Assembly: GCA_002887195.1 (NCBI GenBank)
Contig: PJAB01001007.1
Span: 1 to 18,236 of the forward strand
DNA from: Chrysochromulina parva
Lineage: Eukaryota; Haptophyta; Prymnesiales; Chrysochromulinaceae
Direction: 5' to 3'
DNA length: 18,236 nt
Under the pieces are notes generated by a model. The model worked only from the letters and a program-made list of their open reading frames with translations, was not told where the DNA came from and made no database searches. The translations under genes and the position numbers were made by a program. This document shows positions 2,096 to 18,236 of the stretch, in pieces (positions within the stretch are counted from its first letter, which is position 1; the number at the start of each line of letters is the position of its first letter).

Positions 2096-4854
2096 ATGCG
2101 TCGCACCTTGTGCTTGTCGCTGGGCCTCTCCCTCGTCGTGGCAACCACCGCACAAGGGCCGAAGGCGGAGAACATGAATGGCGACTATCCGCTCTCGGCA
2201 ACCCCCGGTGCGGACAAGTCCGGGTCCAAGTTCCCCAAGCGCTTCTCGGACTACCCAGGAGACGTGGAATTCTTCGACGTGTACTCGCCGATGATCCGGT
2301 CGACATACGGTGAGGTTTTCTGGACGCTGCTTGACCCGGTGCCGCTCCCGCAAGCCATCGTCGCCAAATACGCCGGAAAGGGCATGGCGGTCGTCGGCTT
2401 TGAGACCAACCAGGTGCGGCGCACGGCCACTGGCGAGGAGGTCTCGGTGCCGATCAACGTGGCGTACAACCACCACTTTGAGAGCACCATGACGGGAAAC
2501 AAGTCGGTCTTGGAGAAGGTCAAGCTTGGCGGCCCCGACGACCCTCGGCGTCACGGGCATGGGCACGGCTCTACTACCGCGGACTATGCATGGGTCGTAC
2601 GCGAGCTTGCGCCCGGCATCAAGGTGGGGGGCAAGACCCTTCCGACCTCGCAGGACTTTGGCGGCGCCAATGGCGGGGAGTACCGCAAGAGTTTCCACGG
2701 GTACGCCCCCGGATATGTTCAGGTCATCGAGTCGCCAACGACGTGGCATATCACGCCAATGCAAATCGACACGTGGAACAGAGAGCTTATGTCACTGGAT
2801 GGGTCCACCCCCTTCGTGCCGGGGCCGCTGCCCGCGTCGGCGCTCTCTCCCGGCTCGCGCAACGTGCCCCCCAAGTCCCCCTCCGACATCCTGTACAGCG
2901 GCCTTCTAGAGTGCCCAGTGACCTCTCGGATCATCAAGCATGTACAGGCGGGCTACGTGCCGCTCAGCTCTGGGCAAGTCGGTGGCTGCGAGGGGGCTGT
3001 GGGGAGTCCGAAGAGCGCGGCCGAGTGCTTCGCGGCGGCCAAGGGTCTTGGCTCCTCTCTGTGCGGCGCCTCGATGCCGACTCACAGTGTGGAGTCAAAT
3101 GATGGCTTCTGATGGCGTCCGATTGCCTCCCTCATCAGTCCGATTGCCTCCCTCATCAGTCTGATTGCCTCCCTCATCAGTCCGATTGCCTCCCTCATCA
3201 GTCCGATTGCCTCCCTCATCAGGTGTGGCGCCTCGATGACGACTCACAGTGTGGAGTCGAAGACGGTCCCCGCCGGATGCGCCCTGACGCTGACGCCGAG
3301 CGCTGCCACGGGCGCTGCCTCGGGCGCTGCCACGGGCGCTGCCACGGGCGCAGTGTCGTGCGCTGCCACATGGAATTCCGCACCGCCCGAGTCTCCTACG
3401 AGTCCATGTGGCGGCAAAGCCAAGGACCATGCCGGCAAGCGGCGCGCGGCCGGCGTCGTCAGCGCCCTCTCCGGCTGGCACCTTGAAGTGAGCCTGTCGG
3501 AGCCCAACCAGACAGCTACCCTGACCATCACCGGCCCGGCCGACGAGTGGTTTGGCGTCGGGTTCAATGCGACTACGATGGGAGGTGGTGCCCCTGGAGA
3601 CCCGACCGGCCCGTACGCGATCCTCGTGGGCGGGGGCGATGGGGAGGTGAGTGAGCGTCGGCTGTACAACCATGCCGCCGGAGAGCTCCTTGAACCCTCG
3701 ATCAAGGTGCTCTCGAGCGCTGTGCTCGATGGGAAGCGAACCCTCGTCCTCGAGCGTCCACTCAACGGCACGACGCCACAGCACTTTTCGTTCCGCTTGG
3801 AGGACGACGCTCAGGGCGACGCGTCCCTGCTGAGCATCATCAGCGCGATCGGGAGTGGCCCGACGTTTGGGCTCGACCACCATAGTCAGAAGACCACCAC
3901 GACCCTTGCGCTGCTCCAACTCGAGGCCCCAATGTGCATCTGCCCCGCGCCCGAGCCCGCCTTTGGCTTTGCCAAGGGCACGCTCGAGTACATTGACCCC
4001 GTGACCAATAGTAGCAAAGGCAAGGTCGGGTTCGACAACACCTGCGCGCCGCCGCCCCGGATGGATACCCTCGCCGAGAAAAACCCCGCGTGCGATCTGC
4101 GCACATACGCTGGCGGCCAGATTGCCTGCCATCATGAGTGGGTCCTCCTCGACGCGGACCAACCCACGCCGTGGGCTGACCAGCCTCTCGAGTACCAGCT
4201 CAAGTTCCGCTACTGGGTGCAGCCGTACGACCCGAGCTTCCACACCAACGTGTAAGCTCCCGCAACCAGGGCCCGGCCTTGCTGATGGCTCCCGCAATCA
4301 GGGCTCGGCCTCGTTGATGGTACCTGAGTGCCACCTGATGGCACCTGATTGCCTCCCTGATCAGGTACCGGAATACATGGGGACTCGGATCGCCGGTCGA
4401 GTACGACGTCGCGCAGTGCGCACCTGGCACGCCAACAGCCCAGTGCAACCACACGATCACCGGCCTGGGCATCTTCCAACCGAAGCCGTCGGCCACGTCG
4501 CCCCACCAACGGCTTGTCAAGGCCAACTTCCACTGCCATGCGCCCACATGTCTCGCGATCTCGCTCTACACGTGCGACCCAGCCGTGCACACGAGCTGCC
4601 AGAACAAGACGCTCCTGTGCGAGGAGCGCCCCATCTACGGCGGCCGGGGCGACCCTCGCCTCGCGGGGACGGTCTATGATGAGCCCGGCTACATTGCCCA
4701 GCCCCCGTGCGTCTGGGGGCGGAGTGAGCACGGTCTCGAGCCGCCACCGCTCATCAGCGGCGTCAACCTGTACGCGGAGGCGACCACCAACAACACCTAC
4801 GGCCATCACGGCGAAATGGCCTGGCTGCAGGTCTACTACCTTGAGGAGGACTAG
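2096..4854 (+). CDS. Secreted DOMON-domain protein, three exons
   Basis: Exons are 2096-3060, 3223-4251 and 4365-4854, giving 827 residues; all phases match (2 and 2). The protein opens with a signal peptide (MRRTLCLSLGLSLVVATTAQ). An N-terminal region carries NVAYNHHFESTMTG, a His-rich HGHGHG run and YSGLLECPVTSRI. A DOMON-like beta-sandwich follows at about residues 400-560 (EWFGVGFNATTM, GPYAILVGGG, RTLVLERPLNG, FGLDHH). Then comes a Cys/His-rich segment (CICP, NPACDLRTYAGG, CHHEWVLLDADQ) and a C-terminal region with FHCHAPTC, IYGGRGDPRL and YGHHGEMAWLQVYY. DOMON domains bind heme or sugars and occur in secreted or membrane redox proteins. The clustered His and Cys residues would suit metal binding, but I assign no enzyme activity. 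I recognise the architecture as one seen in algae and oomycetes but cannot name it. Expected to be extracellular or in the endomembrane system. Confidence 0.82.
3061..3222 (+). other. Intron 1 of the DOMON gene, with exon-head duplication
   Basis: The intron is GTGCGG...CATCAG, 162 bases, phase 2. Its first 38 bases (3061-3098) nearly repeat the start of the next exon (3223-3260), with about three mismatches. If retained, the frame stops at 3110-3112. The rest of the intron is a 21-base tandem array. The donor GT thus has a twin directly after the acceptor. Confidence 0.8.
3118..3222 (+). repeat. Five tandem 21-base units inside intron 1
   Basis: There are five copies of a 21-base unit with core GATTGCCTCCCTCATCAG. 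One copy has CTGATT in place of CCGATT. Each unit ends in CAG, and the last CAG is the predicted acceptor at 3221-3222, so the array offers five stacked acceptor candidates. Confidence 0.95.
4252..4364 (+). other. Intron 2 of the DOMON gene
   Basis: The intron is GTAAGC...TGATCAG, 113 bases, phase 2. Splicing joins HTNV to YRNTWGLGSP and avoids the immediate TAA at 4253. It holds a 32-base direct tandem duplication (4256-4287 and 4288-4319) and ends with the GATTGCCTCCCTGATCAG module. Unlike several others it has no obvious copy of the next exon's head. Confidence 0.85.
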
Positions 4855-5166
4855 AACTCGTTTCTGATTAGAAATGGCCACGAAGTGTGGAACTCTAGAG
4901 CGTGACGGATGAGTACGTTTCGGAACAGTTTCGGAATACCGTTGCAGACATTATTGCGCGAAACCTGGCCCCTAAACAACCGTGGCCTAAGTGTCCACAC
5001 AATTTGAAACCACCAAGAGAAGTGCGTCCCGCAAGACACTTACCATGGCTGTGAGAGCACTTCTGCATCCGCGGGCTGTGGGAAGACGAGATGTTTGCTC
5101 GACAGGCGCGAAACGACAATCCAGAGCGAGCATCCGGCCACTTTCCTGCTACGATCGGACGACCAG
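4855..5166. other. Intergenic region between two plus-strand genes
   Basis: This stretch is less GC-rich than the neighbouring exons. I see no convincing coding signal, RNA gene or repeat beyond small inverted motifs such as TTTCTGATTAGAAA at 4860. It must contain the 3' end of the DOMON transcript and the promoter of the SKP1-like gene. Confidence 0.4.
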
Positions 5167-6408
5167 ATGGCCACTTGTCTCACCCGCGCCGGTCCGCTTC
5201 GGATGCTGTCAACGTACACAGACTCGACGCCGCTGACCGTCACGCATGACAGCGTGGAAGTCATCTCATCAGATGGGAAGATCGTGCGTCTATCGCGCGC
5301 CACGGCATCGCTCTCTGATGCTCCGATGTATCCTTCGGCGCCTTGCGTGCATGTGGCCGCCCCGGCCCAGACACTCGTCGATCTCGTCGCAGTCGCCGAC
5401 GCGCTTGTGTCGCGCTTCTTCACCTCCAGACCGACGACGGCCTCTCTTTCTGCCCTTGATAAGCTGCGGAGGCTGTCGCTGCCGCGTCGGATGGCCGTGC
5501 TGCGTGCCTCCCAGCTCTTGGAGTTTCGTTCGGTCGCGCGCATGGCGACCATCGCCATCAGCGAAGTGCTCCGAGGCAAATCCTGTCAAGTGCTTCAGAT
5601 CATATTAGAGGCTGAAGATGACTTGACTCCACAGGAGCGAGCGCAGGCGCTCGCCGAGCCGTTGTTCACGCCGCCGACTGCTGAGGACGAAGTCGAGGTG
5701 GACACTGCCGATGGCCTCGTGAGGTCCGACGCCGACTGCTGGGGCGCCTGCCTGGCTGACCTCGACGCGCGCTCCCTGCGCAACCTCAAGGCCGTCTCCC
5801 GTCTGTGGCGAGCCCGTGCCCGCCGCGTGCTCGGCGACGCGTGCTCGGCGTGGCGAGCGAATCCGGAGTGGTCGGCTGGAACCTGGGCGGTCGATTGGTT
5901 CGTGCCGCGACTGTCGTCTGACGACGAGACGATGCGCAAGCGCGCTCTGCTCGCCTTGGACTCGCTCGAGGCCACGGTCGAGCTGCCGTACTTTGTACCG
6001 GATCTAATGCAGTGCCTTCATGCGCAGAGCCGCTCGAGCGCTCGCGCTCTTGCCCTTCGTGCGCTGAGCCGCATGGAGCCTCTCACCCTCGAACTCGACG
6101 GCGACGCCCTGCGCGACGCCCTCGAGCACAATCTGGAGCCTCACGAGATCGCGTCCGAGCGCACGCGCACTCTGATGACCAAACTTGGAATGCGTCTGCC
6201 TACGACAGGCGATCCCGGTGCGACCGGTGCGGCGGCATGTGCGGCGGCATGTGCGGACGAGGCCAATCTGGGCGACGTGCGCGAGCCGCGGCTGGGAGTG
6301 GCCGCGAGGGCCGCTAAGAAACGTCCCCACCGCAACGAGGAGCCCTTACCACCCGATGACCTGCGTCGGAAGCTCATGAGGGGCGCGTGCACGCAACGGA
6401 GTTTGTAG
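5167..6408 (+). CDS. SKP1-like domain fused to an F-box-like segment and helical repeats
   Basis: Translation from ATG5167 gives 413 residues; the open frame extends to a TTG at 5095, but 5167 is the first in-frame ATG. Residues 27-165 resemble SKP1. VEVISSDGKIVRLSRATASLS matches the SKP1 N-terminal BTB/POZ strand, and residues 112-160 (LRASQLLEFRSVARMATIAI, then EVLRGKSCQVLQIILEAEDD, then LTPQERAQ) match its C-terminal F-box-binding helices. Residues 187-226 (WGACLADLDARSLRNLKAVS then RLWRARAR) look like an F-box. Residues 238-341 are Leu/Ala-rich paired helices of HEAT/ARM character. The C-terminal tail is basic (AAKKRPHRNEE). In SCF ubiquitin ligases SKP1 and F-box proteins are separate partners, so having both in one chain is unusual. 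The SKP1-like part is divergent; the function is inferred. No introns are needed. Confidence 0.7.
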   Translation: MATCLTRAGPLRMLSTYTDSTPLTVTHDSVEVISSDGKIVRLSRATASLSDAPMYPSAPCVHVAAPAQTLVDLVAVADALVSRFFTSRPTTASLSALDKLRRLSLPRRMAVLRASQLLEFRSVARMATIAISEVLRGKSCQVLQIILEAEDDLTPQERAQALAEPLFTPPTAEDEVEVDTADGLVRSDADCWGACLADLDARSLRNLKAVSRLWRARARRVLGDACSAWRANPEWSAGTWAVDWFVPRLSSDDETMRKRALLALDSLEATVELPYFVPDLMQCLHAQSRSSARALALRALSRMEPLTLELDGDALRDALEHNLEPHEIASERTRTLMTKLGMRLPTTGDPGATGAAACAAACADEANLGDVREPRLGVAARAAKKRPHRNEEPLPPDDLRRKLMRGACTQRSL

Positions 6409-6521
6409 AGAGGCGGTCAGCGGTGCGCGCTGCGCCAAAGTGTCTGAAAAGTAACAACGAAGGGAACCAGCGTCGAAGGGTAACTCGAGCTGTTAGCCGA
6501 AAATCTCTCCACATCATTCGG

Positions 6522-6529
6522 TACCGGTA
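6522..6529. promoter_or_regulatory. TACCGGTA octamer between convergent genes
   Basis: This is a third copy of the palindrome seen at 521 and 7849. It sits in the 169-base gap where the SKP1-like gene (+) and the methyltransferase gene (-) converge, so it is not upstream of either. That weakens a simple promoter reading. Confidence 0.15.
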
Positions 6530-6577
6530 TGCGTCTTTCCCCCGCTCGCTGCCTGACCTGTCACTGGTGTCCTCCTC

Positions 6578-7756
6578 TCAACACATACCGAGACATGTAT
6601 TGGCCGAATGACGGTTCGCGCCGAAGATGCTGGCGCCGCGAAATTGCATGCGCCCCATGGCCGCGGAGTGGTACACGTCGAAGACACGCGCGCTCGCGTT
6701 GCGCACCACATTGAAGCCATGCCGTTCCAGGGTGCTGACCACATGCTCCGAGATGTGGTCAGCATGGCCTTCGATGTGCACGCGGCGCACGCGGCGCAGG
6801 GCGTCGGAATCGGCAGCGCTCTGCACCAAGAACATTTCGCCTCGTTGCGCATCCATGTCGAGAAAGTCGACGTGCTCGAGGCCACGTAAAGTTTCGTTGA
6901 GTGTGACGCCTCGGGGCGCGCGGTCGAATGGTGCTTGAATGACCCGGTACGTATCGGGCCCGAACCCATTCATGGCAAAGTGCTGCCTCAGCCACGTGAC
7001 ATGTAGCGCCTCCGGCTCGACCACAACGGCAAACCAGGAGCGCGAGCGGCCCAAGATTCGGGCCGCGGTCATGGCACGCACTGCCCACGGCGCGTAACGG
7101 GCTCCAACCTCGACGACGATGAATTTGCCTCCAATGTCAGCCGATGCGACGGCCATCATGGCGTCCGCGAGCTCAAAGTACTCCTCATCGACAGTCGGTA
7201 AATCCACGCCGCGTGGCGAGTCGCCACGCAAGCAGTCCACGGCGCGGCTTGGCACGTTCGCCGCGTATGGAGCCGTGTAAGTGTTGGCCTCGCAGTCCCA
7301 GCTCCAGGGCCGGGCATTGCCGAGCCACTCTCTGATGAGCTCTGGTTGGGATCGAACATGTGGGGATTCAGAGCGCGCGGCTGATGCGAAGAGCTGGAAT
7401 ACAGGCAGATGCTTTTGGCATGCAACATCCTCTGTGAGTGCGAACGCGTTAAACGCCAGACCCTCCGGACATAACGGAAGACCAGTCGCACGCACGCGTG
7501 CCGTGGTGTTTGCAACCGCCATAAACACAGACTCCTCCTCTTCTGCACGTCGTGATTTCGGGTATGTGGGCACGTGCCGAAACATGGGGTGGGATGCCTT
7601 GCAAACACAATGCCAACCCTCGTCGGACGTGGCGGAATGGCTGATTGCACGTGATGTGCATGGCGTTGAAGTTTTCCACGGAAACGGACGTCTGTGCCCC
7701 AGACTGTGTACCTCGCCCAGAGGAGCGAGGATCTCCGTCCAATTGTGGAGTCGCAT
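6578..7756 (-). CDS. FkbM-like SAM-dependent methyltransferase
   Basis: From ATG7756 this is a 392-residue protein. The C-terminal half has a Rossmann methyltransferase pattern: FIVVEVGARYAPWAVRA (about 213-228) as the SAM-binding loop, VVVEPE (244-249) as the acidic end of strand 2, VDFLDMDAQRGE (296-307) and RRVHIEGHADHISEH (324-338). This order is typical of FkbM-family O-methyltransferases and their algal relatives. The substrate is unknown. The first 110 or so residues show no domain and are poorly supported. The frame stays open upstream to a TTG at 7861, and an internal ATG (MAVANTT) is another possible start. It converges on the SKP1-like gene and lies downstream of the SET gene on the same strand. 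The fold is well supported; the start is weak. Confidence 0.68.
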   Translation of the reverse strand: MRLHNWTEILAPLGEVHSLGHRRPFPWKTSTPCTSRAISHSATSDEGWHCVCKASHPMFRHVPTYPKSRRAEEEESVFMAVANTTARVRATGLPLCPEGLAFNAFALTEDVACQKHLPVFQLFASAARSESPHVRSQPELIREWLGNARPWSWDCEANTYTAPYAANVPSRAVDCLRGDSPRGVDLPTVDEEYFELADAMMAVASADIGGKFIVVEVGARYAPWAVRAMTAARILGRSRSWFAVVVEPEALHVTWLRQHFAMNGFGPDTYRVIQAPFDRAPRGVTLNETLRGLEHVDFLDMDAQRGEMFLVQSAADSDALRRVRRVHIEGHADHISEHVVSTLERHGFNVVRNASARVFDVYHSAAMGRMQFRGASIFGANRHSANTCLGMC

Positions 7757-7848
7757 CGATTGTCCCCGACTCCAAGTGGTCCGAAGAAACCATTTTGGCT
7801 GTGAAACTGTGCTGCGCAAGAACGCATGTCGCAACGCGCGAAAATTAG

Positions 7849-7856
7849 TACCGGTA
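7849..7856. promoter_or_regulatory. Palindromic octamer TACCGGTA upstream of the methyltransferase
   Basis: It lies about 95 bases upstream of ATG7756, in the short gap after the SET gene's stop codon. The copy at 521 sits at a similar distance from its gene. Function is inferred from recurrence only. Confidence 0.25.
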
Positions 7857-7898
7857 AACAATATTACTTTTCTTGGAAGGTCGCCACGAACGGCTCAG

Positions 7899-9736
7899 TT
7901 ACGTTTGCGTTTGTGCTGCACGATTCAGTCGCATCTCGGGTGTGGTGAACATCCTCTCGGCGACATCTCCATGCGCTAGCCGTTCGAGGACGAGCACTTC
8001 CGCCTCGCGCACCTCGCGTGCCAGCCGAACGCACGCCTCCCGTGGTGCTGGTGCTCCGCCAGCCTCCCTCGCCGTCATCATCGCCTGGGATAACCGCCCA
8101 TGCGGCTCGTGGCACGCGGCCAGCCGCTCCCTCGCGGCTTCCCTGAGCAACGAGGCCGCTAACCAGTCGTTCTCGGCCGAGAGCCGCCCATCTTCCGAGT
8201 CGAGGAGTTGACGAAACATGGCCTCGAGCTGTTCGTTCGGGTCGGTCTGCTGGCCGCCGACGGCCTCGAGGGTCCTCCCATCGAGCGCGCACAGCCGCGC
8301 ACAAACCACGAGCGCCGCCGCGCCGTACTGGTTCGACGGCAAGCGGCCAATCTCGGCCTCGGAAATTGCAATCTCGATGAGCTCGTCGCTCACGAAGAAG
8401 GTGAGCTCGGGCAGCCTCATCCACAGCGCAGCATCTGCGAGCACATGGGCCAAGAATGTGTGCCCATCTTCCACTTCGATCGGCGCCGGCTCCGTCCCGC
8501 TCCCTCCCTGGTAGGCATCGTCGTCGTGCGCATCGAAGTTGTCAGGCGTCCAGTCGTCCGAAAGCTCGAGCGCACGCGACTGCGCGGCCAAGGCGATGGC
8601 GGGGCCCATCGTCCTGCCCATCTTCGCCGCGACGCCCTCGAGGTTCAGGACGCACGTCGCCATTTGGTGCACGCCTGCAGGCACGCCTGCAGGCACACCG
8701 ACCTTTGGCACAAATCCGTAGTGCATCGCAAACACAAAATGTGGGTGGTCTCCATAAAAGTTGAGTAGTTCCTCACCTGATGAGGGAGGCAATCAGCATG
8801 CACTCAGAGAGGTCATCAGGGAGGCTCAGGGTGGTCGCCAAAAAAGATGAGCTCACCTGCGGCTACAGGTGACCGCGTGCGAGCGACGAGACAGGGCTCT
8901 GAGAGAGCCGCCTCCTCCCACTCATCTCTTCCATCCTCATCAGCCCACTCCGTCCAATTCACGGGCTGTTCAAAGTCCACGGACCCCTTCGTTCGATGTT
9001 GAACGGACGGCGGCTTGCCGTGCTGCAGCACGTCGAGGAGAGGGATCATCTCCCGCGCGCCAAAGTCGCTCAGGTCGTCAAACGAGCGGCTGAGCACCGC
9101 GGCGTGTGCGCGGCGGACGCACGTCGCGATCCTCTCCTCGACTACCGCCGCGTCCATCGGTACACCTCGCGCCGATAGGTCCTGATGCACACACCACCGG
9201 AGGGAATCCAGACTGAGCGCAAACCTGACGACGTCCTCGGCCTCGGCCCGCACGTCCAAAGCGATCTGGTACGCGGCGGTGCCGGAGAGCAGATCCACCT
9301 CCTCCTCGGTCCAGAACTGCACATAGTCGGGATTTGCGACGGTCAAGTCCAGGGTGTCGATGTACGGTTTGAAGGCTCCGTCGCTGCACAAGGCCTCTTT
9401 GGCCAGAAACGCGCACAGCACGCCGAGAGCATTGCCATCCTCGACGCGAGATTCAAACTCTGCGCCGCAGCTTGGGTCAGCTAATGCTGCCTTCAAGCCC
9501 ACGTGCAATCGTTTCGGCACGGCAAACACCATTTCCCCGAGTGCAATGTCGCGTTCCGCGAAAACACCGACGCCGCCGAGAGTCGAGGGCACAATGCAAA
9601 CGGGTCCAAGGCGTAGCCCCTGCTGGCGAGCCCAGGTGAGGAACACCTCGTGCCTGGTCAAGCTCGCGGCGGCAGGCCAGATGGCATGTCCAAGGAGGAG
9701 AGCAGCCGCAAGCACGACACCTATCGGCATTAACAC
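7899..9736 (-). CDS. SET-domain protein of the Rubisco LSMT/SETD type, two exons
   Basis: Exons are 8857-9736 and 7899-8776, phase 1, 585 residues. A hydrophobic leader (MLMPIGVVLAAALLLGHAIW, cleavage near PAAAS) suggests entry into the secretory or plastid route. The SET domain opens with GGVGVFAERDIALGEMVFAV (54-73), has a long inserted helical region including QFWTEEEVDLLSGTAAYQ, then IPLLDVLQHG (231-240), and closes with AAGEELLNFYGDHP across the splice site (292-305). The C-terminal half is helical and fits an LSMT-type substrate-binding domain. Such enzymes methylate Lys or His side chains of proteins using SAM; the substrate here is unknown. The usual Asn-His pair of the SET core reads Gln-His (LQH) in this protein. 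ATG9736 is the natural start because it places the leader at the N-terminus. Confidence 0.82.
8777..8856 (-). other. Intron of the SET gene, with decayed exon-head duplication
   Basis: The intron is GTGAGC...CTCATCAG, 80 bases, phase 1, ending with the GATTGCCTCCCTCATCAG module. Its first bases would encode GELIFFGDHP, while the next exon opens with GEELLNFYGDHP. The intron start is therefore an older, diverged copy of the exon start, now with indels. Retention would stop the frame at 8816. Confidence 0.82.
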
Positions 9737-10332
9737 CTCCGGACAGACTTAACACCTTTTTTTAAACACACTTTTCAGTCAAGTCAAGTCAAGTCAAGTA
9801 CTGAAGTTAGGCTTTCGTACGGTCGTCTGTTGTTCATGTATTGGCTTGACTTGACACGTTTCACACCTCGTAGACGTTCTCACTCGTTTCATTTCAGTCC
9901 CGTCCATGTATACTGTTTGGCACACTTCGAAAACCCACATTATAGGCATCGACCGGTGGTGTTGCCGTATGCAACAAACTCAACTCGCATGCATCATCCT
10001 TCCGTCTAGATCCCGTCCGCTCATGGCTCATGAGTCAGGTGACAGGTCTCTCAAGGACAAGGTGCAAGGTGCACGGCTGCACGCTCCCCCGGACGGCACA
10101 TCCGGCCGTGCGGCGTTCCGTTTACGTTCCCTTCGGGTGTGCGGGTTAGGTGTGTGGTACAGTACACGATGCATCTCATACTCAATGCCTGCCTAAACTC
10201 TACTACGTACTACGTAACGTACGACCTGCTTGCGGTGCCCCGCGGAATGCCTCAGGCCGGATTAGTGCGCGGCAAGGGCATCTTCTTGCTGCTTGCAGGC
10301 TTCATAGACGATGCTCGGGGAGCGCTGCCGCC
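9737..10332. other. Intergenic region, promoter side of the SET gene
   Basis: This 596-base region lies between two minus-strand genes: upstream of the SET gene and downstream of the GTPase-Hsp20 gene. It contains a GTCAA repeat at 9778-9799 with an inverted match at 9845-9855, the repeated word TTAACACCT near 9730 and 9750, and a run of overlapping TACGTA palindromes near 10201-10222. I see no gene. Confidence 0.45.
9778..9799. repeat. Pentanucleotide GTCAA repeat with an inverted partner
   Basis: There are about 4.4 copies of GTCAA. The inverse sequence CTTGACTTGAC is at 9845-9855, so an 11-base stem with a loop of roughly 45-65 bases could form. It lies 40-120 bases upstream of the SET gene's ATG. 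Confidence 0.75.
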
Positions 10333-12607
10333 CTATGCAATAGGATTAACTTCGCCCTTGCCCTCCTCCTCCTCCTCGTCCTTGAGGTATCTGATTCGCA
10401 GCACGCCATTCTCCATGTCGGCCGACTCCCATCGTCTCTGTTGCTCCTCGGGGATCCGAAAGGTCAGTGGCAATCAGAGACCATCAGAGGCAATCAGAGA
10501 CAATCAGAGGCAATCTCACCTGGTACTCCTCGGGGATCCGAAAGGCCAGTGGCAATCTGAGACCATCAGAGGCAATCTCACCTGGTACTCCTCGGGGATC
10601 CGAAAGGTCAGTGGCAATCAGAGACAATCAGAGGCAATCTCACCTGGTACTCCTCGGGGATCCGAAAGGCCAGTGGCAATCAGAGGCAATCAGAGGCAAT
10701 CTCACCTGATACTCCTCGGGGATCCGAAAGGTCATCGTGAACTCTCCTGCCTTGCGCTCCTGGCGCGTGACCGAGGTTGCGATCTCGCGGTCTGACAGAC
10801 CACTTTCGCGGGTACCCTTGACGATGGTCACCACGTTTTGGCGGGAGAGCTTCACCTGTGGGGAAGAGGGCGGGCGCCGCGGTGAGCACCTGCATGCAGC
10901 TCGACGGCCTTGACGATGGTCACCACGTTTGGCGGGAGAGCTTCACCTGATCACGCGTCATGCCGGGCAGGTCCATGTAGATGTTGTACGCGTCCGGCTC
11001 TCGCACGATGTCGACAGGCGGCAGGTACGAGTCCGGACGCGCCAGCATGATGCCGGAAGCATCGACAGACAGCTGATGAAGCCGCAATCGCTCCGGAGCC
11101 TCCGAGTGCGAGCGGATGTACCAGACGCGCCCTTCTGTACCTGCCTCTTCTGTGTGCGTGAGCGCCAGCTGCGGGTGCGTCTTGAAGTGCGTGGCGAGCT
11201 TCTGATTCGAATAGTGCACCACCGCGTCGACGACCGAGAAATCGCGAGCGACGGGGATGAAGACGCCTATGGGGCGATCGGTGGCGCTCAGCGGCCATCG
11301 GAGGTCATCAGCGGCCATCAGCTGCCATCAACGACCATCGGAGCTCATCAGCGCTCATCAGCAGCTCACTCTTGAGCCAGTAGCGCAGCAAGGAGAAGGC
11401 CCACGGGTTGAGATTCTCTCCGAGATCGGAGTCTGAGTTCGCGAGGAGCACGTGGCGGGAAAAGGGCGTCTTGAACCAGCCCACGGCTTTCTCAACGAGG
11501 GTGTTCGTGGCCGGGTCGGTCGCGGCTACAAGCGTCGTCTGCGGCGTGCCGCTGCCATAGATGGCAGTCACCTGCGTCTCCCACACGTATCGGAGTGTAT
11601 CCTCGTCAATGACCTCCTTACAGTTGTGTACCACGATCACCTCGCGAAAGTCCTTTTTGGAGTTTTGGAGATTGCGTGTCAACTTGTCGAGATAGCGCTG
11701 GTCAAGCGAGGTGAAGTCGTTGACGACGCACCTGCAGTCGATCGGTGGCATTCCATCTCAATCAGAGGCAATCAGAGGTCATCCGATGCAATCAGCGGCA
11801 AGGAGAAGCACTCGTCGTAATCAGAGGCCATCAGAGGTAAACAGAGGCAATCACACACAATCAGACGCAATCAGACGCCATCAGACGCCATCAGACGCCA
11901 TCAGACGCCATCAGACGCAATCCGTCGCACAGGAAGTAATCCGACATCTCGAAGATGAGCTCCTGTAGGAAGAGCTCTGTGGCCTCCTTCTCGACGACCG
12001 AGAGCTCATTCGAAACCTTGACCGGTGAGAACGAGCCCTCAGAGTCGAGCAGGATGAACTTGGTGCCGCCGGACACCTCTACGTGCTTGAAGGAGAGGCC
12101 CTTGGTCGCCACCTTCTTGCCCGAGGGCAGCTTCGCGTTCGAGATGTTGTTGAGCACGAAGGTCTTGCCCTTGTCGTACAGGCCGAGCACGGCGACGATG
12201 GCACCGCGCCACGCGGACGCCGGCGGCTGCCCGAAGCCATCCGTGCTCTGTGCGCCGTCCTCGGCAGTCCACTTGCCTTGCGAGAGCACCTGTGCGCGCT
12301 CGGCCTTGTCAAGGCCGGCGAGGAATTCGCCCGAGAACTGGACCTTCCAGCCCTGTTTGGACACGTCGGAAAGCAGCTGGATGTCCACGATCCAATCGTA
12401 CGCGTCCGAAAACAGATTCGCGGACGCCATCTCGTGGTGGCGGCGTTCCTCGAGGTCGAGCGTGTGCTGCAGCCGGCGGTTCTCCATCTCGAGCGAGATG
12501 TTCTGCTTGCGCAGGTCCTCATTATCGGCGAGCAGCGCCGCGAGGATCTTTTGCTTGCTATCGTCGAAGCTCAGCTGCGCCGAAAGCCGGCGCTCGAGGC
12601 TCAGCAT
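10333..12607 (-). CDS. P-loop GTPase fused to an Hsp20/alpha-crystallin domain, five exons
   Basis: Exons are 11931-12607, 11370-11731, 10947-11266, 10706-10855 and 10333-10437; phases 2, 1, 0 and 0 all match, giving 537 residues. Residues about 15-60 are a coiled coil. GLYDKGKT (142-149) is a P-loop. LLDSEGSF (186-193) is a Walker B/G3-like DxxG variant, and VIVVHN (257-262) may be the base-recognition strand. The N-terminal half therefore resembles a large GTPase of the atlastin/GBP-like group, though the nucleotide is inferred. The C-terminal part is an Hsp20 domain: REPDAYNIYMDLPG, then VKLSRQNVVTIVKGTRES, RQERKAGEFTMTFRIPEEYQ and MENGVLRIRY, ending in an acidic tail. Small heat-shock domains bind unfolding proteins. 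The fusion suggests a GTP-driven scaffold or chaperone, but its role is not known. It sits head-to-head with the lumen-protein gene. The third splice pair (11267-11369) is the least certain. Confidence 0.82.
10438..10705 (-). other. Intron 4 of the GTPase-Hsp20 gene, built from copies of the exon tail
   Basis: The intron is GTGAGA...CAACAG, 268 bases, phase 0, joining RIPEEYQ to RRWESADMENG. It contains four further copies of the end of the preceding exon, three of them followed by the GTGAG donor and a GATTGCC-type filler. The last copy supplies the acceptor CAG. Without splicing the frame stops inside the array. Confidence 0.85.
10444..10734 (-). repeat. Tandem array of exon tail plus donor, 62-base period
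   Basis: The exon-tail word (plus strand CTCCTCGGGGATCCGAAAGG) begins at 10444, 10526, 10588, 10650 and 10712. Spacings are 82, 62, 62 and 62 bases; the 82 is 62 plus a 20-base insertion of filler units. The copy at 10712 is the true exon 4 end. Confidence 0.95.
10856..10946 (-). other. Intron 3 of the GTPase-Hsp20 gene, near-perfect exon-head copy, type B tail
   Basis: The intron is GTGAAG...CCCACAG, 91 bases, phase 0. Its first 39 bases match the first 40 bases of the next exon apart from one deleted A in a run of four. That deletion shifts the frame of the intron copy, which confirms that the downstream copy is the coding one. The 3' end (GTGCTCACC...TTCCCCACAG) resembles two introns of the modular gene. 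Confidence 0.9.
11267..11369 (-). other. Intron 2 of the GTPase-Hsp20 gene (least certain)
   Basis: The proposed intron is GTGAGC...CCATAG, 103 bases, phase 1, joining RYWLKS to VFIPVARDF. It is filled with imperfect GCTGATG/GATGGC decamers. It is the only nearby GT-AG pair I found that keeps both flanking frames open. No exon-head copy is evident. Confidence 0.6.
11732..11930 (-). other. Intron 1 of the GTPase-Hsp20 gene, with decamer array
   Basis: The intron is GTGCGA...CTGCAG, 199 bases, phase 2, joining EMSDYFLC to VVNDFTSLDQ. Intron and next exon both begin GTGCG, perhaps the remnant of a head copy. The body is a long 10-base ladder. Confidence 0.82.
11861..11920 (-). repeat. Six tandem decamers in intron 1 of the GTPase-Hsp20 gene
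   Basis: The plus-strand unit is TCAGACGCMA, six copies in a row, with degenerate related units extending left to about 11758. In the transcript it reads as repeated CTGATKGCGT. Confidence 0.92.
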
Positions 12608-12775
12608 TTCCGCCCTGTCAGACCTGTCTGCTGGGCCGGAGGGGGATGACCATCTTTGGTCGACTTCGAGAAAGGTACGTTCGTGATGCTTTCTTGTCTC
12701 CGTACTCCGCTACTACCCGCAACCCACCACCATCCGATTTCGTCAGTCCGACCCGAGATTTCAGCGAGCTACATC
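12608..12775. promoter_or_regulatory. Short head-to-head promoter region
   Basis: Only 168 bases separate the ATG of the GTPase-Hsp20 gene (-) from the ATG of the lumen-protein gene (+), so the two probably share a bidirectional promoter. I see no clear TATA box or known element. Confidence 0.5.
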
Positions 12776-13507
12776 ATGCGCACTACGTTCGGACTTTTGG
12801 TCGTGATCGGCACTGCCATGGGCCTGCAGCTTGGCGTCGGCCGACGCGCCGCCATAGGCGGATGCATCGCAGCCCTCGCCCCCATCGCACCATCGTTTGC
12901 AATCGTCAATCCTCTCGATCGAGGGGAGGTGCAGGTGTGTCCGCCTTCTGGAGCATGCACATGAAGGCATGCATGGAAACAGCGGTCCCGGACCCAGCCT
13001 CTGAAGCCTACTGCCAGTGAAACCTTCTGTCAGCGAGCCCTTTCTGCAAAGGAATATGCCAGCTGCCACTCCGGTGAACACACTCATTGTCCATGGGTCC
13101 CGACACGCTTCGCCTCCTCTGCTCTTCTGCAGTTCAAGAAACGCAACTATGGGGACATGGAGCCGCCCGGCTCGAAGCCGGCGTCGCCCGTGGCGGGTTG
13201 CAAAAAGCTGAAGCCGGACGGCTTCGGCGGCAAGGTGTGTCGAGACGAGGAGGTGAAGCCGCTGCTGGCGAAGGTGCTCTCCGGTGACGAGCCAGCAACG
13301 GCTCCGGTGGCCGTCGCGGCCGCGCCCCGAAAGAGTGTAGGCGAGTCGACACGCTCCTCGTCCGTGTCGGAGGCGCCGCTCACGCTCGAAGGCCTGATAG
13401 AGGCCTCGATTAAGAACAAAGAGGAGGTCCTCGGGCGTGAGCTTGATGCCGAGGAGAAGATGGAGATTGCCTCAAAGGTGACGAGGCTGTTGGCCGCCAA
13501 GAAGTGA
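12776..13507 (+). CDS. Predicted thylakoid-lumen protein, two exons
   Basis: Exons are 12776-12934 and 13133-13507, phase 0, about 177 residues. The N-terminus has a signal peptide (MRTTFGLLVVIGTAMGLQLG), then a twin-arginine segment VGRRAAIGGCIAALAPIA with Ala-rich cleavage site PSFA. This layout is typical of lumen proteins in complex plastids. The mature part (FKKRNYGDMEPPGSKPASP, then CKKLKPDGFGGKVC with two Cys) leads into a low-complexity Ala/Val/Ser linker and a C-terminal helix (LTLEGLIEASIKNKEEVLGR then ELDAEEKMEIASKVTRLLAA). I do not recognise the family. An in-frame ATG at 12656 exists, but 12776 puts the signal peptide first. Donor choice is GTGTGT at 12935 or GTGCAG at 12929, differing by two residues. 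Confidence 0.65.
12935..13132 (+). other. Intron of the lumen-protein gene
   Basis: The intron is GTGTGT...TTCTGCAG, 198 bases, phase 0. It has neither the GATTGCCTC ladder nor an exon-head copy, and it is the only intron here without such filler. A donor six bases earlier (GTGCAG) is also possible. Confidence 0.65.
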
Positions 13508-13563
13508 GACACATCGGGAGATTGCCTCAACGGTGACGAGGCTTAAGAGCGCCAGAAGTGAGA
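13463..13563 (+). repeat. Direct duplication of the lumen gene's 3' coding end
   Basis: The stretch from 13463, which contains the last codons and the stop, is repeated from 13518 at a 55-base offset with several substitutions and a small indel. The second copy lies in the 3' untranslated region. Its core again contains GATTGCCTC. Confidence 0.85.
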
Positions 13564-13986
13564 GCTCCACACCGCCTTGACCCCTGTGGGATCGCCTTGC
13601 CCGAAAAGGCGCTTCCCGCCCTCTCGGCGTCGTCTGTCAGCGAAGTATCTTCAAGTCCGTCGGTCAGTCGCGCGGTCTGACTCTGTCGGACCTACGAACA
13701 CGGCGCCGCGTCGCGCGAACCTTGCGATCCGGTGCGTGCCGAGTTTCACGCATTGGTTTCACGTCGTGCGGGGTGTCGCGCCAAATAGCCATATTTCGCA
13801 AAGGCAATGACCAATGTTTAAAAGCGCATTGCACCAAATAAGCAGTTTGCGGGTCCTCTTATGCGTGCTATGTATACGTTACAAGTAACTGCACGGTTTT
13901 CCCACCAAGCACCTCCTTGTGCCTTCTGTGCCCATTACGGCGCAAAATCTAAGTTAGGAAGTTCATGGAAAGTCGAGCGAACAGCG
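13508..13986. other. Intergenic region, 5' flank of the F-box-like gene
   Basis: After the 3' duplication there is no coding signal. GCGCCAAA at 13778-13785 matches an E2F-type core site and ACCAATG near 13810 resembles a CCAAT box, but both are short and could be chance. An in-frame ATG at 13861 could extend the next gene. Confidence 0.35.
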
Positions 13987-15207
13987 ATGTCGGCGCCTGC
14001 GTTCGCTGCGCCGTGGGATAGCCTGTCGGAGGATCTGCAGCGACAAATCATCATACACTGCAGCTTTGATCAGCTTCGGGCTCTCAAAGCTATTTCTTGG
14101 GCTATGTGCCGCCTGGGGCGTGCTGTCCTAGTCAGCGAATGGAGCGTCGCGTGCGCTGTGGCGGCTGCTGAAGATGACTACGTGAAATCAGACTTGCTTA
14201 TTCAGGAGCAAACACACAGATGGGGCACGTGCCCCAAGTTGCTGCAGCGCTTCAAGCCGCTCTGGAAGCGCGACCCGATGCAGTTCATGCTGGGCCTCGA
14301 ATTCTGGCACAAAGCAAACATGGCGGGCCACTTTCTCATAGCCATGGCCTCACGATTCAAGGACCGGTACGGGGAGCGGCAGGAAGAGGTCCACTATCTG
14401 TTCAGGCGCAACATGAAGTACACGCGCCGCCTCAAATCGATCGTTTGCGGCCTACAGCGCTGGCGCAACGTCGAGGCGGCCGGCCGCGTGCTCTATGTAT
14501 GGACGAGTTTTCGACCCTGGCCCTCAACCCTGGAAATCGAGCGTGACATGCGGACCCTGGAGCGGGTTCTGGCTGCTCTCGTCCAGCTCTGGCGGGAGGA
14601 GAACATGCAGAAGGCGGTCGCACTTGTGGATGTTTGGCTCTCTTGGCATCGGGAGAGTATCCCGGAAACTACTGCACATATAGGAAGCGCTCGTATAGGG
14701 GATACTCTGTTCGCACTAACTCGTATCAGCGACACGGTTAGTGCGAACAGGCGCGCTTTCATGGCCGCTTTGCCTTTTGGACCGTTGACTACTCCAAGGC
14801 GGCGAGATTGGGAGGGGACTGGGAATGATGATGATCGATGGGCCGTCGATGCTCTGCGCCCAGAAGAGGAGGAGGATGATGATCATGAGTCCGATGCGAG
14901 CGCTCTGTCAGCGTCGGAGGCATCGGCTTCGGAAGGCGAGGATGAGGCAGAGGACGATGAGGAGGTTGATGACGATGAGGAGGGTGAGGAGGAGGGGGGG
15001 GAGGACGACGAGGATGGGGAGGACGACGAGGAGGGTGAGGACGATCGCGATGGCGGTGAAGGCGGCGACGGCGAGGGCGGCAGCGGCAAGGGCGGCGGCG
15101 GCGAGGGCGGCGGCGGTCGATCGACTCGCAGAATATTCGCGCACTGCGCAGCGGCTTCGCGCTCGGCGAAACGCCACGAGGACGAGGATGAGCAGGGCAG
15201 AGGCTAG
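13987..15207 (+). CDS. F-box-like protein with acidic and glycine-rich tail
   Basis: From ATG13987 this gives 406 residues. WDSLSEDLQRQIIIHCSFDQ then LRALKAISWAMCRLGRAVL near the N-terminus fits an F-box (Leu at the start of helix 1, then the LRALKAIS helix). The middle is helical and Trp/Arg-rich (about residues 75-250) with no named domain. From about residue 290 the chain becomes a long Asp/Glu tract, then a Gly/Glu stretch, then a short basic end (RSTRRIFAHCAAASRSAKRH). F-box proteins bring substrates to SKP1 in SCF ubiquitin ligases, and another F-box-like protein lies at 5167. The frame is open to ATG13861, which would add 42 residues of unlike composition; I prefer 13987. A perfect 14-base inverted repeat lies within the coding region. 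No introns are needed. Confidence 0.65.
   Translation: MSAPAFAAPWDSLSEDLQRQIIIHCSFDQLRALKAISWAMCRLGRAVLVSEWSVACAVAAAEDDYVKSDLLIQEQTHRWGTCPKLLQRFKPLWKRDPMQFMLGLEFWHKANMAGHFLIAMASRFKDRYGERQEEVHYLFRRNMKYTRRLKSIVCGLQRWRNVEAAGRVLYVWTSFRPWPSTLEIERDMRTLERVLAALVQLWREENMQKAVALVDVWLSWHRESIPETTAHIGSARIGDTLFALTRISDTVSANRRAFMAALPFGPLTTPRRRDWEGTGNDDDRWAVDALRPEEEEDDDHESDASALSASEASASEGEDEAEDDEEVDDDEEGEEEGGEDDEDGEDDEEGEDDRDGGEGGDGEGGSGKGGGGEGGGGRSTRRIFAHCAAASRSAKRHEDEDEQGRG
14707..14750. repeat. Perfect 14-base inverted repeat inside coding sequence
   Basis: CTGTTCGCACTAAC (14707-14720) pairs exactly with GTTAGTGCGAACAG (14737-14750) across a 16-base loop. It lies in the F-box-like gene and encodes part of LFALTRISDTVSANR. 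Confidence 0.95.
14862..15120 (+). repeat. Low-complexity coding tract (Asp/Glu, then Gly)
   Basis: GAGGAGGAT/GACGAC-type triplets encode the acidic tail, followed by GGCGGC repeats. They keep frame with the F-box-like gene. The mirror open frames on other strands (Ser/Pro- or Arg-rich) are artefacts of this tract. Confidence 0.85.
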
Positions 15208-15758
15208 GCTAAGAGAGTGAGCGAACCTGATGGTTTGTGAGAGAGCGGTTGATACAATAGTCATGTGCCAAGTTGACATTGAAGCGTTGTCGTATGCGAG
15301 CCGGAGGTTGACACAGACCCTGTAGTACTCACAAATCAGTACTTAGATCGACGGAGCGAGGACGAGCAGTACGGACTCTAGCACCATTTGCAGAAATAGG
15401 GTCGCCCCGAAGAGTGTATTTTGTGTGACAATGTGCACGAACGCAATGCACACCCGCACCGACCGCATGACCGACCGGTCCGGGCACCATGGTCTATGGT
15501 CCATGCACGCCATGCTTCGACTCGACGGCTTATCGTAAACGTACTCGTAGTGCTACCGCTAGAGCTCGCGCTATTAGACGAACAAACATAGATATCATCC
15601 AGGCATAACGCAATCATCCAGGCATCGTTCCACATGGTTGCGTCACAAAGGCGGCGAGTTCGCGGCGCCGCTCTCTCACAACTGCCCCGGCGCCGCGGGT
15701 TCCGGCTCGAGCAATTAAGAGGCAATTAGGAGGCGATTCGGAGGCAATTAGGAGGCAA
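15208..15758. other. Intergenic region between convergent genes
   Basis: This 551-base stretch holds the 3' flanks of the F-box-like gene (+) and the modular gene (-). Its right part contains a GAGGCAATTA-type array (about 15711-15761) that belongs to the insertion at the 3' end of the modular gene. Left of that I see only small palindromes such as AGTACT near 15324 and 15340. Confidence 0.4.
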
Positions 15759-15774
15759 TTAGGGTTCCGGCTCG
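15697..15774 (-). repeat. Duplication-plus-filler insertion at the end of the modular gene, without GT
   Basis: GGGTTCCGGCTCGRGCA occurs at 15697-15713 and 15762-15778 with one mismatch. The filler between them is the CTAATTGCCTCC ladder in the gene's sense direction. There is no GT at the left edge in transcript sense, so it should not splice as a GT-AG intron, and its TAA at 15759-15761 ends the current reading frame. Confidence 0.8.
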
Positions 15775-18156
15775 GGCAGCAGCGGCGGCATGGCACGCGG
15801 CGGGTACCCGTCGGCCGAGCGCGGCCCCCAGACCTCGAGATCATCGAGGAGGATGACACCTGCTGCTCGGCCAAGTTGTAACGCCACCTGGAGGCAATTA
15901 GGAGGCAATTAGGAGGCAATTAGGAGGCAATTAGGAGGCAATTAGGGTTCTCTGCTGCTCGGCTAAGTTGTAACGCCACCTCGATCTTATGGCCCACCCG
16001 ACTCGCGCCCAAGTGGATGGAGACCTCGAAGCGCTGCCACGTGGTGCTCAGCCGGAAGTCATCGGCTAACCCGAGGTAGCGCCAGCCGTCACTCGCATCC
16101 AAAAAGTCCACTGCCAGGCGCGGCGCCGGATGCCGTTCGGGCGTTCGCGCCCAAAAGGCAACCTTGAGGGCGCCCGGCATGGCGCTGACGACGGTGCAGA
16201 TGGCCAAGCGCGCCGTCGCGGGCGCGCCGACCGGTTCGAGCACGTTGAACATCGCGCCGGCGACCCCGGTGCGGGCGGCGTGTGGGGAACTCAGCTGCAC
16301 GCGCACCTGATGAAGGAGGCGATCAGAGGGCAATCAGAGGCAATCAGAGGCAATCAAGGGGCGATCAGAGGTGATCAGAGGCCATCAGAGGCCATCAATA
16401 AGGCAAACAAAGGTCATCAGAGCTCAGCTGCAAGCGTACATGGGGGCCACCTCCGAGGATGGTAGGGGTGCCAGGGGTGCCCCCCGAGTAGATGACGCCA
16501 ATGTGTCGCGTGCTTGCCACATCATCGAAGCCGACGCTCAGCGCCTTGACCGGTACGCCGGCGCCCACGAGCGAAGGGGCGGCGATGACGATGTCGTCGA
16601 GCAGTATCCCCGGTGTCGCAGCTCCCACTACCAGCGCCACGTCGAGCGAATGGCCGGCACGAGAGGTGGGAATGGGAATGATGGCTTCGATGCGCACCCA
16701 TTCGGAGGCGCTGATGGCGAACGTCATCCACGCGCCGAGCCACTCGAAGTCCGCAGTTTCGTCAAGGACCTCGATCTTGACGTATGGACCGGACGGCGCC
16801 GCCCCGGGCGCCGACCCGCCGCCCTTGCCGCCCTTGCCGGCGCTGGTGCCGCCGCTCGCCGTTGCCAGCAGCTCGCGCCCGTCGCTGGCAAATGAGCCTG
16901 AAGACGAGCTGTGGGAGCTTGATGACGAGCTGTGGGAGCTTGATGACGAGCTCTTTTTCTTCTTCGAAGCTGCACTGCTGCCGCTGCCCGTGCTGCCGCT
17001 GCTGCTACTGCCGCTGCTGCCGCTGCTGCTACCGCCGCTGCTGCTGCCAGTCTCGCTGCTGTCGCTGCCGCCACTGCTGATGAGCCGGGCTACAGAGGAC
17101 GCGTCCGCCAGCTTCACCCACAGGGAGACGTTGAGGATGCCCGGAACGGCGCTCACCCTGATGAGGCGTAATTTGGCATCGCTCGGGTTGACGAAGCGCT
17201 GAGAGACGCCCAGCACGGCGCCGTGGGCCGACGAGCGCCCGGCGCCGGCGATGGGCGCGTCGAGCGTGAGCGCCGTGCGAAGCGCGTCGTATTGGGCGCC
17301 CGCGGCGACGCGCGGGGCGAGGGTCACTGCGTCGCTCGTCTCGAACGTCACGTTGAGGATTGTGGACAGCGCGCGCTCCGGGCACGTGATCTCGAGGTCA
17401 TCGAGATCGTAATTGCCCCCGCCCCCAAACGTGAGGGACACGTCAAGCAGGTGTCCATCGACCGATTCGGCCACGTCCACTTCCATACTGAGCTTCTTCC
17501 ACGCGCTGCCCACAGGCGCCGTCGTGGCGCTCCCGAGCCAGCGGAATTCGTCAGTTTCGTCAAGCACCTCGAGGCCGAGCGCGAGGTCCTTGGCGGTGGC
17601 GCTCGCGACGGCGCCCGCCCTCACCCAAACCGCCACACGCAACGTGCCCGCGACCGCGTGAAACTTGCCCAGCGCGAGCAGCGGCTTGCGTGCGCCGACG
17701 CCGCCCGCCGCCGGCGGAAGCATCGGCACGCGCACCTGTGGGGAACACCGAGCGCCGTGATGAGCACATGCATGCTCAGAGTCTGCTGGTGCGGGGAGTG
17801 GCGCGCCGGCACGCGCACCTGCGCGCCCGCCTTGCTCCCGTGCCGTGCATGCGCCGCGTCGGCGGCATGCAAGTCGGCATGCATGCCCGCGGCTATCGCC
17901 GACCCCCCATCGGACATGCGCGCCTCGAGATGCGCACCTGTGGGGAACACCGGGCGCCGTGGTGAGCATATGCATGCATGCATGCATGCATGCACATGCG
18001 CGCCTCGAGATGCGCACCGTAGGCGAGCGGCTTGGGCGGCCTTGCGGCGGTTTCGAAGCCTTCGGACAGGAGCACATACGAGCGGCTCGCGGCGGCGCTG
18101 CTCGAACGAGAGCGCTGCTCGACGGCGAGATCATCGACGAGATACGAGGCGCGTAC
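15759..18156 (-). CDS. Modular protein with repeated carbohydrate-binding-like units (5' end outside window)
   Basis: Visible exons are 18018-18156, 17819-17937, 16440-17735, 15980-16306 and 15759-15887, with phases 1, 0, 0 and 0 matching, for 669 residues; at least one more exon lies to the right. The protein repeats a beta-sandwich-like unit of roughly 130-200 residues. Landmarks recur in each unit: LDETDEFRWLGSA, LDETADFEWLGAW and LDASDGWRYLGLA; GTLRVAVWVRAG, GILNVSLWVKLA and GALKVAFWART; and YDLDDLEITCP, GILLDDIVIAAP and GVILLDDLEVWGP. This pattern resembles CBM4/9-type or similar jelly-roll carbohydrate-binding modules, but I cannot confirm the family. A Ser/Gly linker with a KKKK core is inserted in the middle unit. 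No catalytic domain is visible. The protein is probably a surface or secreted multi-domain binder; its signal peptide, if any, is off the window. Confidence 0.72.
15888..15979 (-). other. Intron of the modular gene with a 27/28 exon-head copy
   Basis: The intron is GTGGCG...CTCCAG, 92 bases, phase 0. Its first 28 bases match the next exon's first 28 with one mismatch. The filler is a CTAATTGCCTC ladder. Retention stops the frame (...NCLLIAS then stop). Confidence 0.9.
16307..16439 (-). other. Intron of the modular gene with a 17/20 exon-head copy
   Basis: The intron is GTACGC...TTCATCAG, 133 bases, phase 0. The intron start would encode VRLQLSS and the next exon starts VRVQLSS. The filler is type A decamers (GATTGCCTCT). 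Retention stops the frame at 16395. Confidence 0.88.
16878..17092 (-). repeat. Ser/Gly-rich coding microsatellite tract
   Basis: AGCAGC/GGCAGC-type codons encode a Ser/Gly linker with a KKKK core and SSSSHSSSS runs, inserted inside one beta-sandwich unit of the modular protein between LADASSVARL and GPYVKIEVLD. It is in frame and probably forms a flexible surface loop. Confidence 0.85.
17736..17818 (-). other. Intron of the modular gene, type B tail
   Basis: The intron is GTGCGC...CCCACAG, 83 bases, phase 0. Its first 12 bases equal the next exon's first 12. The 3' half (GCATGCATGTGCTCATC... CGGTGTTCCCCACAG) is shared with the intron at 17938 and, more distantly, with one in the GTPase-Hsp20 gene. 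Confidence 0.88.
17938..18017 (-). other. Intron of the modular gene with a perfect 24-base exon-head copy, type B tail
   Basis: The intron is GTGCGC...CCCACAG, 80 bases, phase 1. Its first 24 bases are identical to the first 24 of the next exon. It contains a TGCA microsatellite and ends in CGGTGTTCCCCACAG. Confidence 0.9.
17971..17994. repeat. TGCA microsatellite, six copies
   Basis: Six copies of the self-complementary tetramer TGCA lie inside the type B intron; the related intron at 17736-17818 has only a short GCATGCATG remnant. It could extrude as a hairpin. Confidence 0.95.
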
Positions 18157-18236
18157 CTGATGAGGGAGGCAATCAGAGGTCATCAGAGCTCATCAGAGCT
18201 CGACGGCGAGATCATCGACGAGATACGAGGCGCGTA
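18157..18236 (-). other. Intron of the modular gene, cut by the window edge, perfect 39-base exon-head copy
   Basis: The acceptor is CCCTCATCAG at 18157-18166. The 39 bases at 18198-18236 are identical to 18117-18155, the start of the next exon. The predicted donor G would be the first base beyond the window. The filler between copies is type A (GATTGCCTCCCTCATCAG). Confidence 0.85.

Follow-up and report, generated by a model that had tools for sequence, protein, structure and literature searches.

Repeat inserts in Chrysochromulina parva appear to become introns through splice signals in a copied insertion site

New introns can be born by tandem duplication across an AGGT site. In the break-repair type of intron gain proposed for Daphnia, short direct repeats flank the new introns, these repeats being shorter than the ones described below and the fillers between them not being known to be shared. 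In plants, paired nicks that are offset from one another give rise to duplications some tens of bases long, in some cases with filler; we know of no link between these duplications and intron birth. Here an 18,236-base stretch of DNA from the haptophyte Chrysochromulina parva was analysed, comprising the entire contig PJAB01001007.1 (C1007, hereafter ‘the window’), together with the draft assembly to which it belongs (45.07 Mb in 2,199 contigs, with a G+C content of 0.61–0.67 across 20 sampled 10-kb stretches, the ‘200-kb sample’). Eight introns in this window begin with a copy of the first bases of the exon that follows them, and it appears from the sequence that such a copy of the insertion site supplies the splice signals that turn a repeat insert into a new intron.

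The bulk origin of introns is an old open question and a large survey, in those portions drawn on here, points to transposons (Gozashti et al., 2022, PMC9860276). In the same portions, previously characterised introners are described as having flanking repeats of 3–9 bp, and the acceptor comes from the element and the donor from the target duplication in some families, the other way round in others. The survey lists internal duplication among the routes of intron gain, and its screen demanded similarity close to either boundary of the intron and discarded low-complexity families (Gozashti et al., 2022, PMC9860276). Internal telomere insertions at double-strand breaks have been described in mammals, where the part of the report considered here gives a duplication at six of 130 loci in rodents and four of 25 in primates (Nergadze et al., 2007, PMC2246262).

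Head copies in the window and across the genome

Eleven introns were delineated in the window, and the head of each was scored against the head of its own downstream exon, with wrong pairs serving as the control. The own pair scored at least 30 in six of the 11 introns, compared with none of the 110 wrong pairs, the best of which scored 27. The initial annotation of this DNA had claimed that intron heads repeat the heads of the downstream exons, and this is borne out by the scoring and by the presence of copies in all eight introns that it named. Two of these, beginning at 16307 (score 25) and 17736 (score 24), fall below the best wrong pair, yet their copies begin exactly at the donor. No head copy was found by this scoring in three of the 11 introns (11732–11930, 11267–11369 and 4252–4364).

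On the plus strand, intron 3061–3222 (phase 2) opens with a copy, at 3061–3099, of exon bases 3223–3261, and continues with a 21-bp tandem filler ending in CTCATCAG. The measured identity of this copy is 36/39, where about 35/38 had been given. The other seven of the eight introns are on the minus strand. Intron 8777–8856 (phase 1), in a SET-domain-like gene, carries a decayed and offset head copy (20/23 in the best local stretch), while intron 10856–10946 (phase 0), inside an HSP20 domain, has a head copy identical at 39/39 positions with one 1-base gap and a filler of the 45-nt kind (CCCCACAG). Four introns interrupt the gene at 18156–15760: 15888–15979 (phase 0, copy 27/28) is filled with an 11-bp repeat (CTAATTGCCTC), 16307–16439 (phase 0, copy 17/20) with a 10-mer, and both 17736–17818 (phase 0, copy 12/12) and 17938–18017 (phase 1, copy 24/24) with the 45-nt motif. 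Intron 18157–18236, which is truncated by the contig end, has a 39/39 copy and a 10-mer filler. A mirror form, absent from the initial list, is seen at 10438–10705, also on the minus strand and inside the HSP20 domain; here it is the end of the intron that copies the tail of the upstream exon (27/30), and the intron has expanded as 62-bp units.

The phases are therefore mixed, as had been claimed, and the copies are pieces of only 12–45 nt. On these two grounds exon shuffling is rejected, in agreement with the initial annotation. Plain tandem duplication without filler is likewise rejected, since filler lies between the copies in all eight of the introns first named.

Splicing of the window introns is supported by the reading frames, by the HSP20 alignments and, weakly, by the SET alignments. 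The minus-strand gene at 18156–15760 contains no stops when spliced, and retention of any one of its four inner introns introduces between 1 and 13; for the HSP20 gene, retaining any one of four introns gives 2 to 11. Intron 3061–3222 brings one stop when retained and none when spliced, and for intron 8777–8856 the corresponding numbers are 11 and one, the latter being terminal. The HSP20 domain (Pfam, 1e-13) and matches to solved structures extend across the junctions of both 10856–10946 and 10438–10705. The SET match at 8777–8856 is weak (Pfam SET 18.9 bits against a cut-off of 22.4), and where the alignment to SETD6 crosses that junction, ungapped, it does so in a second segment of low score. 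The gene that carries HSP20 at its C-terminus (10340–12604, minus strand) also gives a weak GTPase-like match (MMR_HSR1 and GBP, both slightly below their cut-offs).

Two further duplications were observed in the window. An 11-bp-repeat insertion lies between 17-nt copies (16/17) at 15697–15778 on the minus strand, at the end of the gene that contains introns 15888–18017; an in-frame stop (TAA) within its filler means that this insertion is apparently unspliced and the protein seemingly shortened. At 13462–13554, at the 3′ end of a plus-strand frame, a direct duplication of 27–38 nt with at least one mismatch has a start-to-start distance of 55, and no matching GT-AG cut was found for it.

Head copies recur outside the window. 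The 3′ end GATTGCCTCCCTCATCAG occurs 815 times in the genome and is followed by GT at 523 of these sites, with 0 for reversed controls. Flanks were read for 40 of the 523 sites, and mispaired heads and exons (1560) served as controls. An ungapped head copy scoring at least 11 was present in 23 of the 40 introns compared with three of the 1560 mispaired controls, so that the excess of intron-head/exon-head identity on which the initial annotation had staked its proposal is present among these introns. In a gapped comparison 20 of the 40 lay above the 99th percentile of controls, as did 11 of 20 introns with 45-nt filler. No ungapped head copy scoring 8 or more was detected in 15 of the 40; some of these, though perhaps not all, look like old gapped copies. 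Because the 40 introns were picked for a GT beside the filler, the set is unusable as a test of splice-site enrichment.

The heads are private to each intron, being copies of the local exon, and the likeness between introns does not reach both splice boundaries. Two motifs, with 815 and 402 exact copies, have yielded introns at many different sites. The 5′ part of an intron with 45-nt filler might also be the head of a parent intron. When the 75-nt intron of locus L122 was used as a search query, most of 50 matches started at query bases 22–33, but a match on C1667 spanned bases 5–75 at 82% and one on C1602 spanned 16–75 at 85%.

Collapsed or mis-joined repeats might also leave such copies in a fragmented draft of 2,199 contigs. 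At 18157–18236 the donor G would fall at 18237, beyond the contig, and since the contig terminates within the repeat copy this one case could be an assembly effect. As a general explanation, an artefact of this kind deserves hardly any credence: mispaired controls are near zero, the copies show graded numbers of mismatches, and frames and domains are regained when the insert is omitted.

Target duplications flanking unrelated fillers

Fillers were also selected by motifs that include no splice boundary, with 400 mispaired controls for each. The selection comprised a 10-mer stretch (27 of 43 genomic occurrences read), the core AAGTGCTCACCACGGCGC of the 45-nt unit (31 of 402 read) and CCCTAA telomere repeats (arrays on 27 contigs, 22 loci read; C85, C939, C1328 and C2078, at or near contig ends, were left out). 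Arrays of a TTCACA hexamer, present in 18 places including the case at L027, are a candidate fourth filler. Flanking direct duplications scoring at least 14 were found at 15 of the 27 10-mer loci (controls 2/400, recomputed from initial controls of 25/200 that array loci had inflated), at 20 of the 31 loci with the 45-nt motif (controls 0/400) and at nine of the 22 telomere-repeat loci (controls 1/400). A further telomere-repeat duplication is present in the 200-kb sample, at position 7976 of stretch L026. The target duplication is independent of the filler sequence, with three unrelated fillers behaving alike.

For subsequent analysis 42 duplications were kept. All those scoring below 13 were excluded, together with L080, L081, L089, L091, L093, L099, L100, L106, L132, L135 and L136 (arrays, remote or filler-made matches, and short ones). 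The 42 range in length from 13 to 45 nt, with medians of 29 nt for telomere repeats (n = 10), 28 nt for the 45-nt unit (n = 18) and 22.5 nt for the 10-mer (n = 14), and no difference in length between fillers was detected in these small sets (Kruskal–Wallis, p = 0.74). The copies thus exceed the usual introner duplications, as had been proposed, at least by comparison with the 3–9 bp that the survey gives for some introners (Gozashti et al., 2022, PMC9860276). The initial annotation had further suggested a family of intron gains by duplication plus filler; gain and recurrence hold, but the single family gives way to at least three unrelated fillers, one of them telomeric. Duplications in the 200-kb sample are clustered, 42 of 67 being on L023, L024, L026 and L027 (four of the 20 stretches, all from shorter contigs), where the repeats may have broken the assembly.

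The spread of lengths bears on whether a DNA transposon, with a transposase, inverted ends and a target duplication of fixed length, created the introns. Introners of this class are common in algae and some obtain their donor from the target duplication, according to the portions of the survey used here (Gozashti et al., 2022, PMC9860276). Such an origin is nevertheless very unlikely in the present case, in which the duplications are variable and, at 13–45 nt, far from 3–9 bp, telomere repeats behave like the other fillers, and no inverted ends were seen on the 45-nt unit (judged by eye, with no formal test). A transposon with a fixed, short duplication is rejected on the lengths.

If one copy plus the filler is removed from each of the 42 duplications, GT..AG is available at the cut in 24, compared with 3.4 expected from the 4-mer frequencies of the 200-kb sample. 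This seven-fold excess is the highest of any dinucleotide pair at removable cuts. The donor is at the start of the copy in 14 of the 24, AG/GT is within the copy in six, and the acceptor is at the end of the copy in four. The initial claim that duplication alone makes the donor is therefore correct as to the supply of a donor, but too narrow, as the duplication may instead provide the two splice sites together or the acceptor alone. GG..CA is also found in 24 of 42 (5.2-fold), which is CAG/GT in a shifted register, and antisense GT-AG occurs in nine against 3.4 expected. In the telomere set, where the filler has no acceptor, GT-AG is present in five of 10 on the strand shown and in two more on the other strand only. 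An earlier boundary test, on 67 duplications from the 200-kb sample, gave nine GT-AG where the mean for all dinucleotide pairs was 2.6, while four other pairs reached 9–13; the inclusion of paralogous and low-complexity repeats made it a weak test, and it is superseded by the one on the 42.

Four more of the 42 offer GC-AG on the same strand. GC in the donor position, from AG/GC in the duplicated target, was seen at L090, L109, L149 and L091, and GC-AG introns may be usable in this genome. Neither a GT-AG nor a GC-AG cut is available on either strand in seven of the 42, and for two of these (L118 and L145) the surrounding stretch has no open frame whether the insert is kept or removed. Introns would therefore seem to be those products of a wider insertion process that can be spliced.

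In make-up, the 10-mer and 45-nt fillers are similar to the 3′ halves of introns. Both contain CTGAT, CTAAT or CTCAC, which can be likened to the branch-point consensus, followed by pyrimidines and CAG, and neither contains a donor; the missing donor appears to be provided by the duplication. ACAG closes the 45-nt filler in all seven donor-at-start cases, while seven of the 11 others lack that end, it being cut or altered at various points. The pattern points to the requirements of splicing, rather than to the insertion step, as what preserves the end.

Removal of the insert also restores genes. At 10 of the 14 10-mer loci there is no open frame across the insert and its 100-base flanks, and with the insert removed at least one open frame is present in all 14. 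High G+C makes open frames common, so the frame test says little for the telomere and 45-nt fillers. Peptides were made from all 42 empty sites, and 10 chosen for their likeness to known proteins were searched against Pfam; in nine of these a domain runs across the insertion point. Telomere repeats interrupt PfkB (L073), protein kinase (L077), IFT140/172 TPR (L079) and TTL (L082) domains, the 10-mer interrupts Aminotran_5 (L102), 3HCDH_N (L112), ABC_membrane (L094) and Tudor-knot (L105), and the 45-nt unit interrupts Gelsolin (L141). In the tenth peptide (L149) an Arm domain starts just downstream of the insertion point. The L077 insert, of 96 bases within the kinase domain, can be read through in frame, its telomere DNA giving threonine-leucine repeats, as can the 63-base insert at L149, and these two may be coding insertions rather than introns.

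Routes by which the insertions may arise

From the duplications, their spread of lengths, the three unrelated fillers, the splice-site enrichment and the restoration of frames and domains without the insert, we infer that the breaks were staggered, that end joining was the agent, that selection acted as a filter and that the introns are spliced in vivo. The introns may be products of a general insertion process, the repair of staggered breaks with capture of filler, from which spliceable products are retained; we consider this proposal evenly poised between right and wrong. A break or pair of nicks would open in a gene with an offset of approximately 15–40 nt, and short filler DNA (10-mer minisatellite, 45-nt motif, telomeric repeats or other) would be captured between the ends. 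Copying of the overhangs would then leave the filler flanked on each side by the sequence that lay between the nicks, and removal of one copy plus filler at matching points would regain the original gene. The insert would be spliceable if the duplicate starts with GT after a filler ending in AG, if it holds AG/GT (or AG/GC), or if it ends in AG ahead of a filler that opens with GT. Such an insert could be removed by the spliceosome, allowing the insertion to survive as an intron, and other insertions would survive only if the frame were kept or if they lay in non-coding DNA.

A stronger version would have staggered-break repair mass-produce introns whatever the filler, so that telomeric repeats become introns in conserved domains. 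What propagates would be the result of repair rather than a mobile element, and the 10-mer and 45-nt fillers would owe their abundance to how well they serve as the 3′ half of an intron. We advance this version tentatively and with some leaning towards its being wrong. Telomere-repeat insertions with target duplications in kinase, TTL, IFT and PfkB genes would be a specific and testable sign of such intron birth by break repair.

Several observations weigh against break repair. The 10-mer and 45-nt fillers exist in hundreds of copies, as a mobile unit would, and one 3′ boundary is common to nearly all of 50 matches of the 45-nt filler. No duplication at score 14 was found at 13 of the 22 telomere loci or at 11 of the 31 loci with the 45-nt motif. 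The telomere register is 0, 0, 1 and 2 nt at four right ends, with no sign of telomerase priming (0, 0, 0, 1 and 1 nt at five left ends, few ends being evaluable). At least one LINE-like element is present in the genome (L154), and no near-full-length second copy (allele) of window positions 15980–18156 was found among 93 matches.

Filler abundance, the shared 3′ boundary, the telomere loci that lack a duplication, the register result and L154 together leave copying by LINE machinery as the main rival. The 10-mer and 45-nt units would here be SINE-like introners, copied from RNA by target-primed reverse transcription with target duplications of variable length; the unit would carry the branch point, pyrimidine tract and acceptor, the target copy would give the donor, and telomere repeats would be another template. 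Consistent with this, L154 (C324:3600–8600) matches Exo_endo_phos (6.5e-10) and RVT_1 (2.2e-6, below the curated cut-off on a cut frame) in neighbouring, overlapping frames, although all five RVT_1 matches in the genome are weak, and the common boundary of the 45-nt unit is at its 3′ side. The loss of that 3′ end in seven of the 11 insertions without a donor at the copy start is, however, unexpected if copying begins at a fixed RNA 3′ end. Furthermore, telomere repeats are flanked by the same kind of duplications, and no nick motif was apparent at the copy starts when these were inspected by eye, with no formal test. On this evidence LINE copying is rather doubtful as the source of these introns.

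Replication offers another route to the same product, in which a fork stalls, switches to a repeat as template for the filler and re-enters upstream of its exit, so that the target is duplicated with no staggered break. Template switching of this type would fit the tandem expansions at window positions 10438–10705 and at L091 and L093. It would also fit nested partial copies, since the fillers at L074 and L152 hold an extra partial copy of the target, and possible microhomology, the continuation of the filler at L131 and L145 possibly sharing 6–7 bases with the target (both noted by eye and after the fact). These last two features also count in favour of break repair. A fairly similar length range across fillers is not specifically predicted by template switching, a weak objection, and we judge this route unlikely. 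The present data do not separate break repair from template switching.

Comparison with known routes of intron gain

The model of duplication across AGGT has the same splice logic as the six of 42 cases in which AG/GT lies inside the copy, but here a foreign filler lies between the copies. Compared with the Daphnia model, the copies are 13–45 nt in length and the fillers recur hundreds of times. The target-copy scar, mostly of 15–40 nt, is still readable at many loci and is common to unrelated fillers, and the insertion step can therefore be studied apart from the insert.

Mammalian interstitial telomeric repeats are similar to the telomere-repeat loci described here in that short arrays occupy single sites, sometimes with a target duplication. 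The duplication is in the minority in mammals, whereas here it is seen at nine of 22 loci plus L026, and the portions of the mammalian report drawn on here make no mention of introns (Nergadze et al., 2007, PMC2246262).

Introners, as presented in the portions of the survey used above, share with the present introns the property that repeated sequences create introns in bulk, and many introner families have inverted ends (Gozashti et al., 2022, PMC9860276). In C. parva, by contrast, each intron has its own head, copied from its target, and one of the fillers is telomeric. Such introns would probably fail a screen that demands similarity near both boundaries and omits low-complexity families, which suggests why screens of this design would overlook them.

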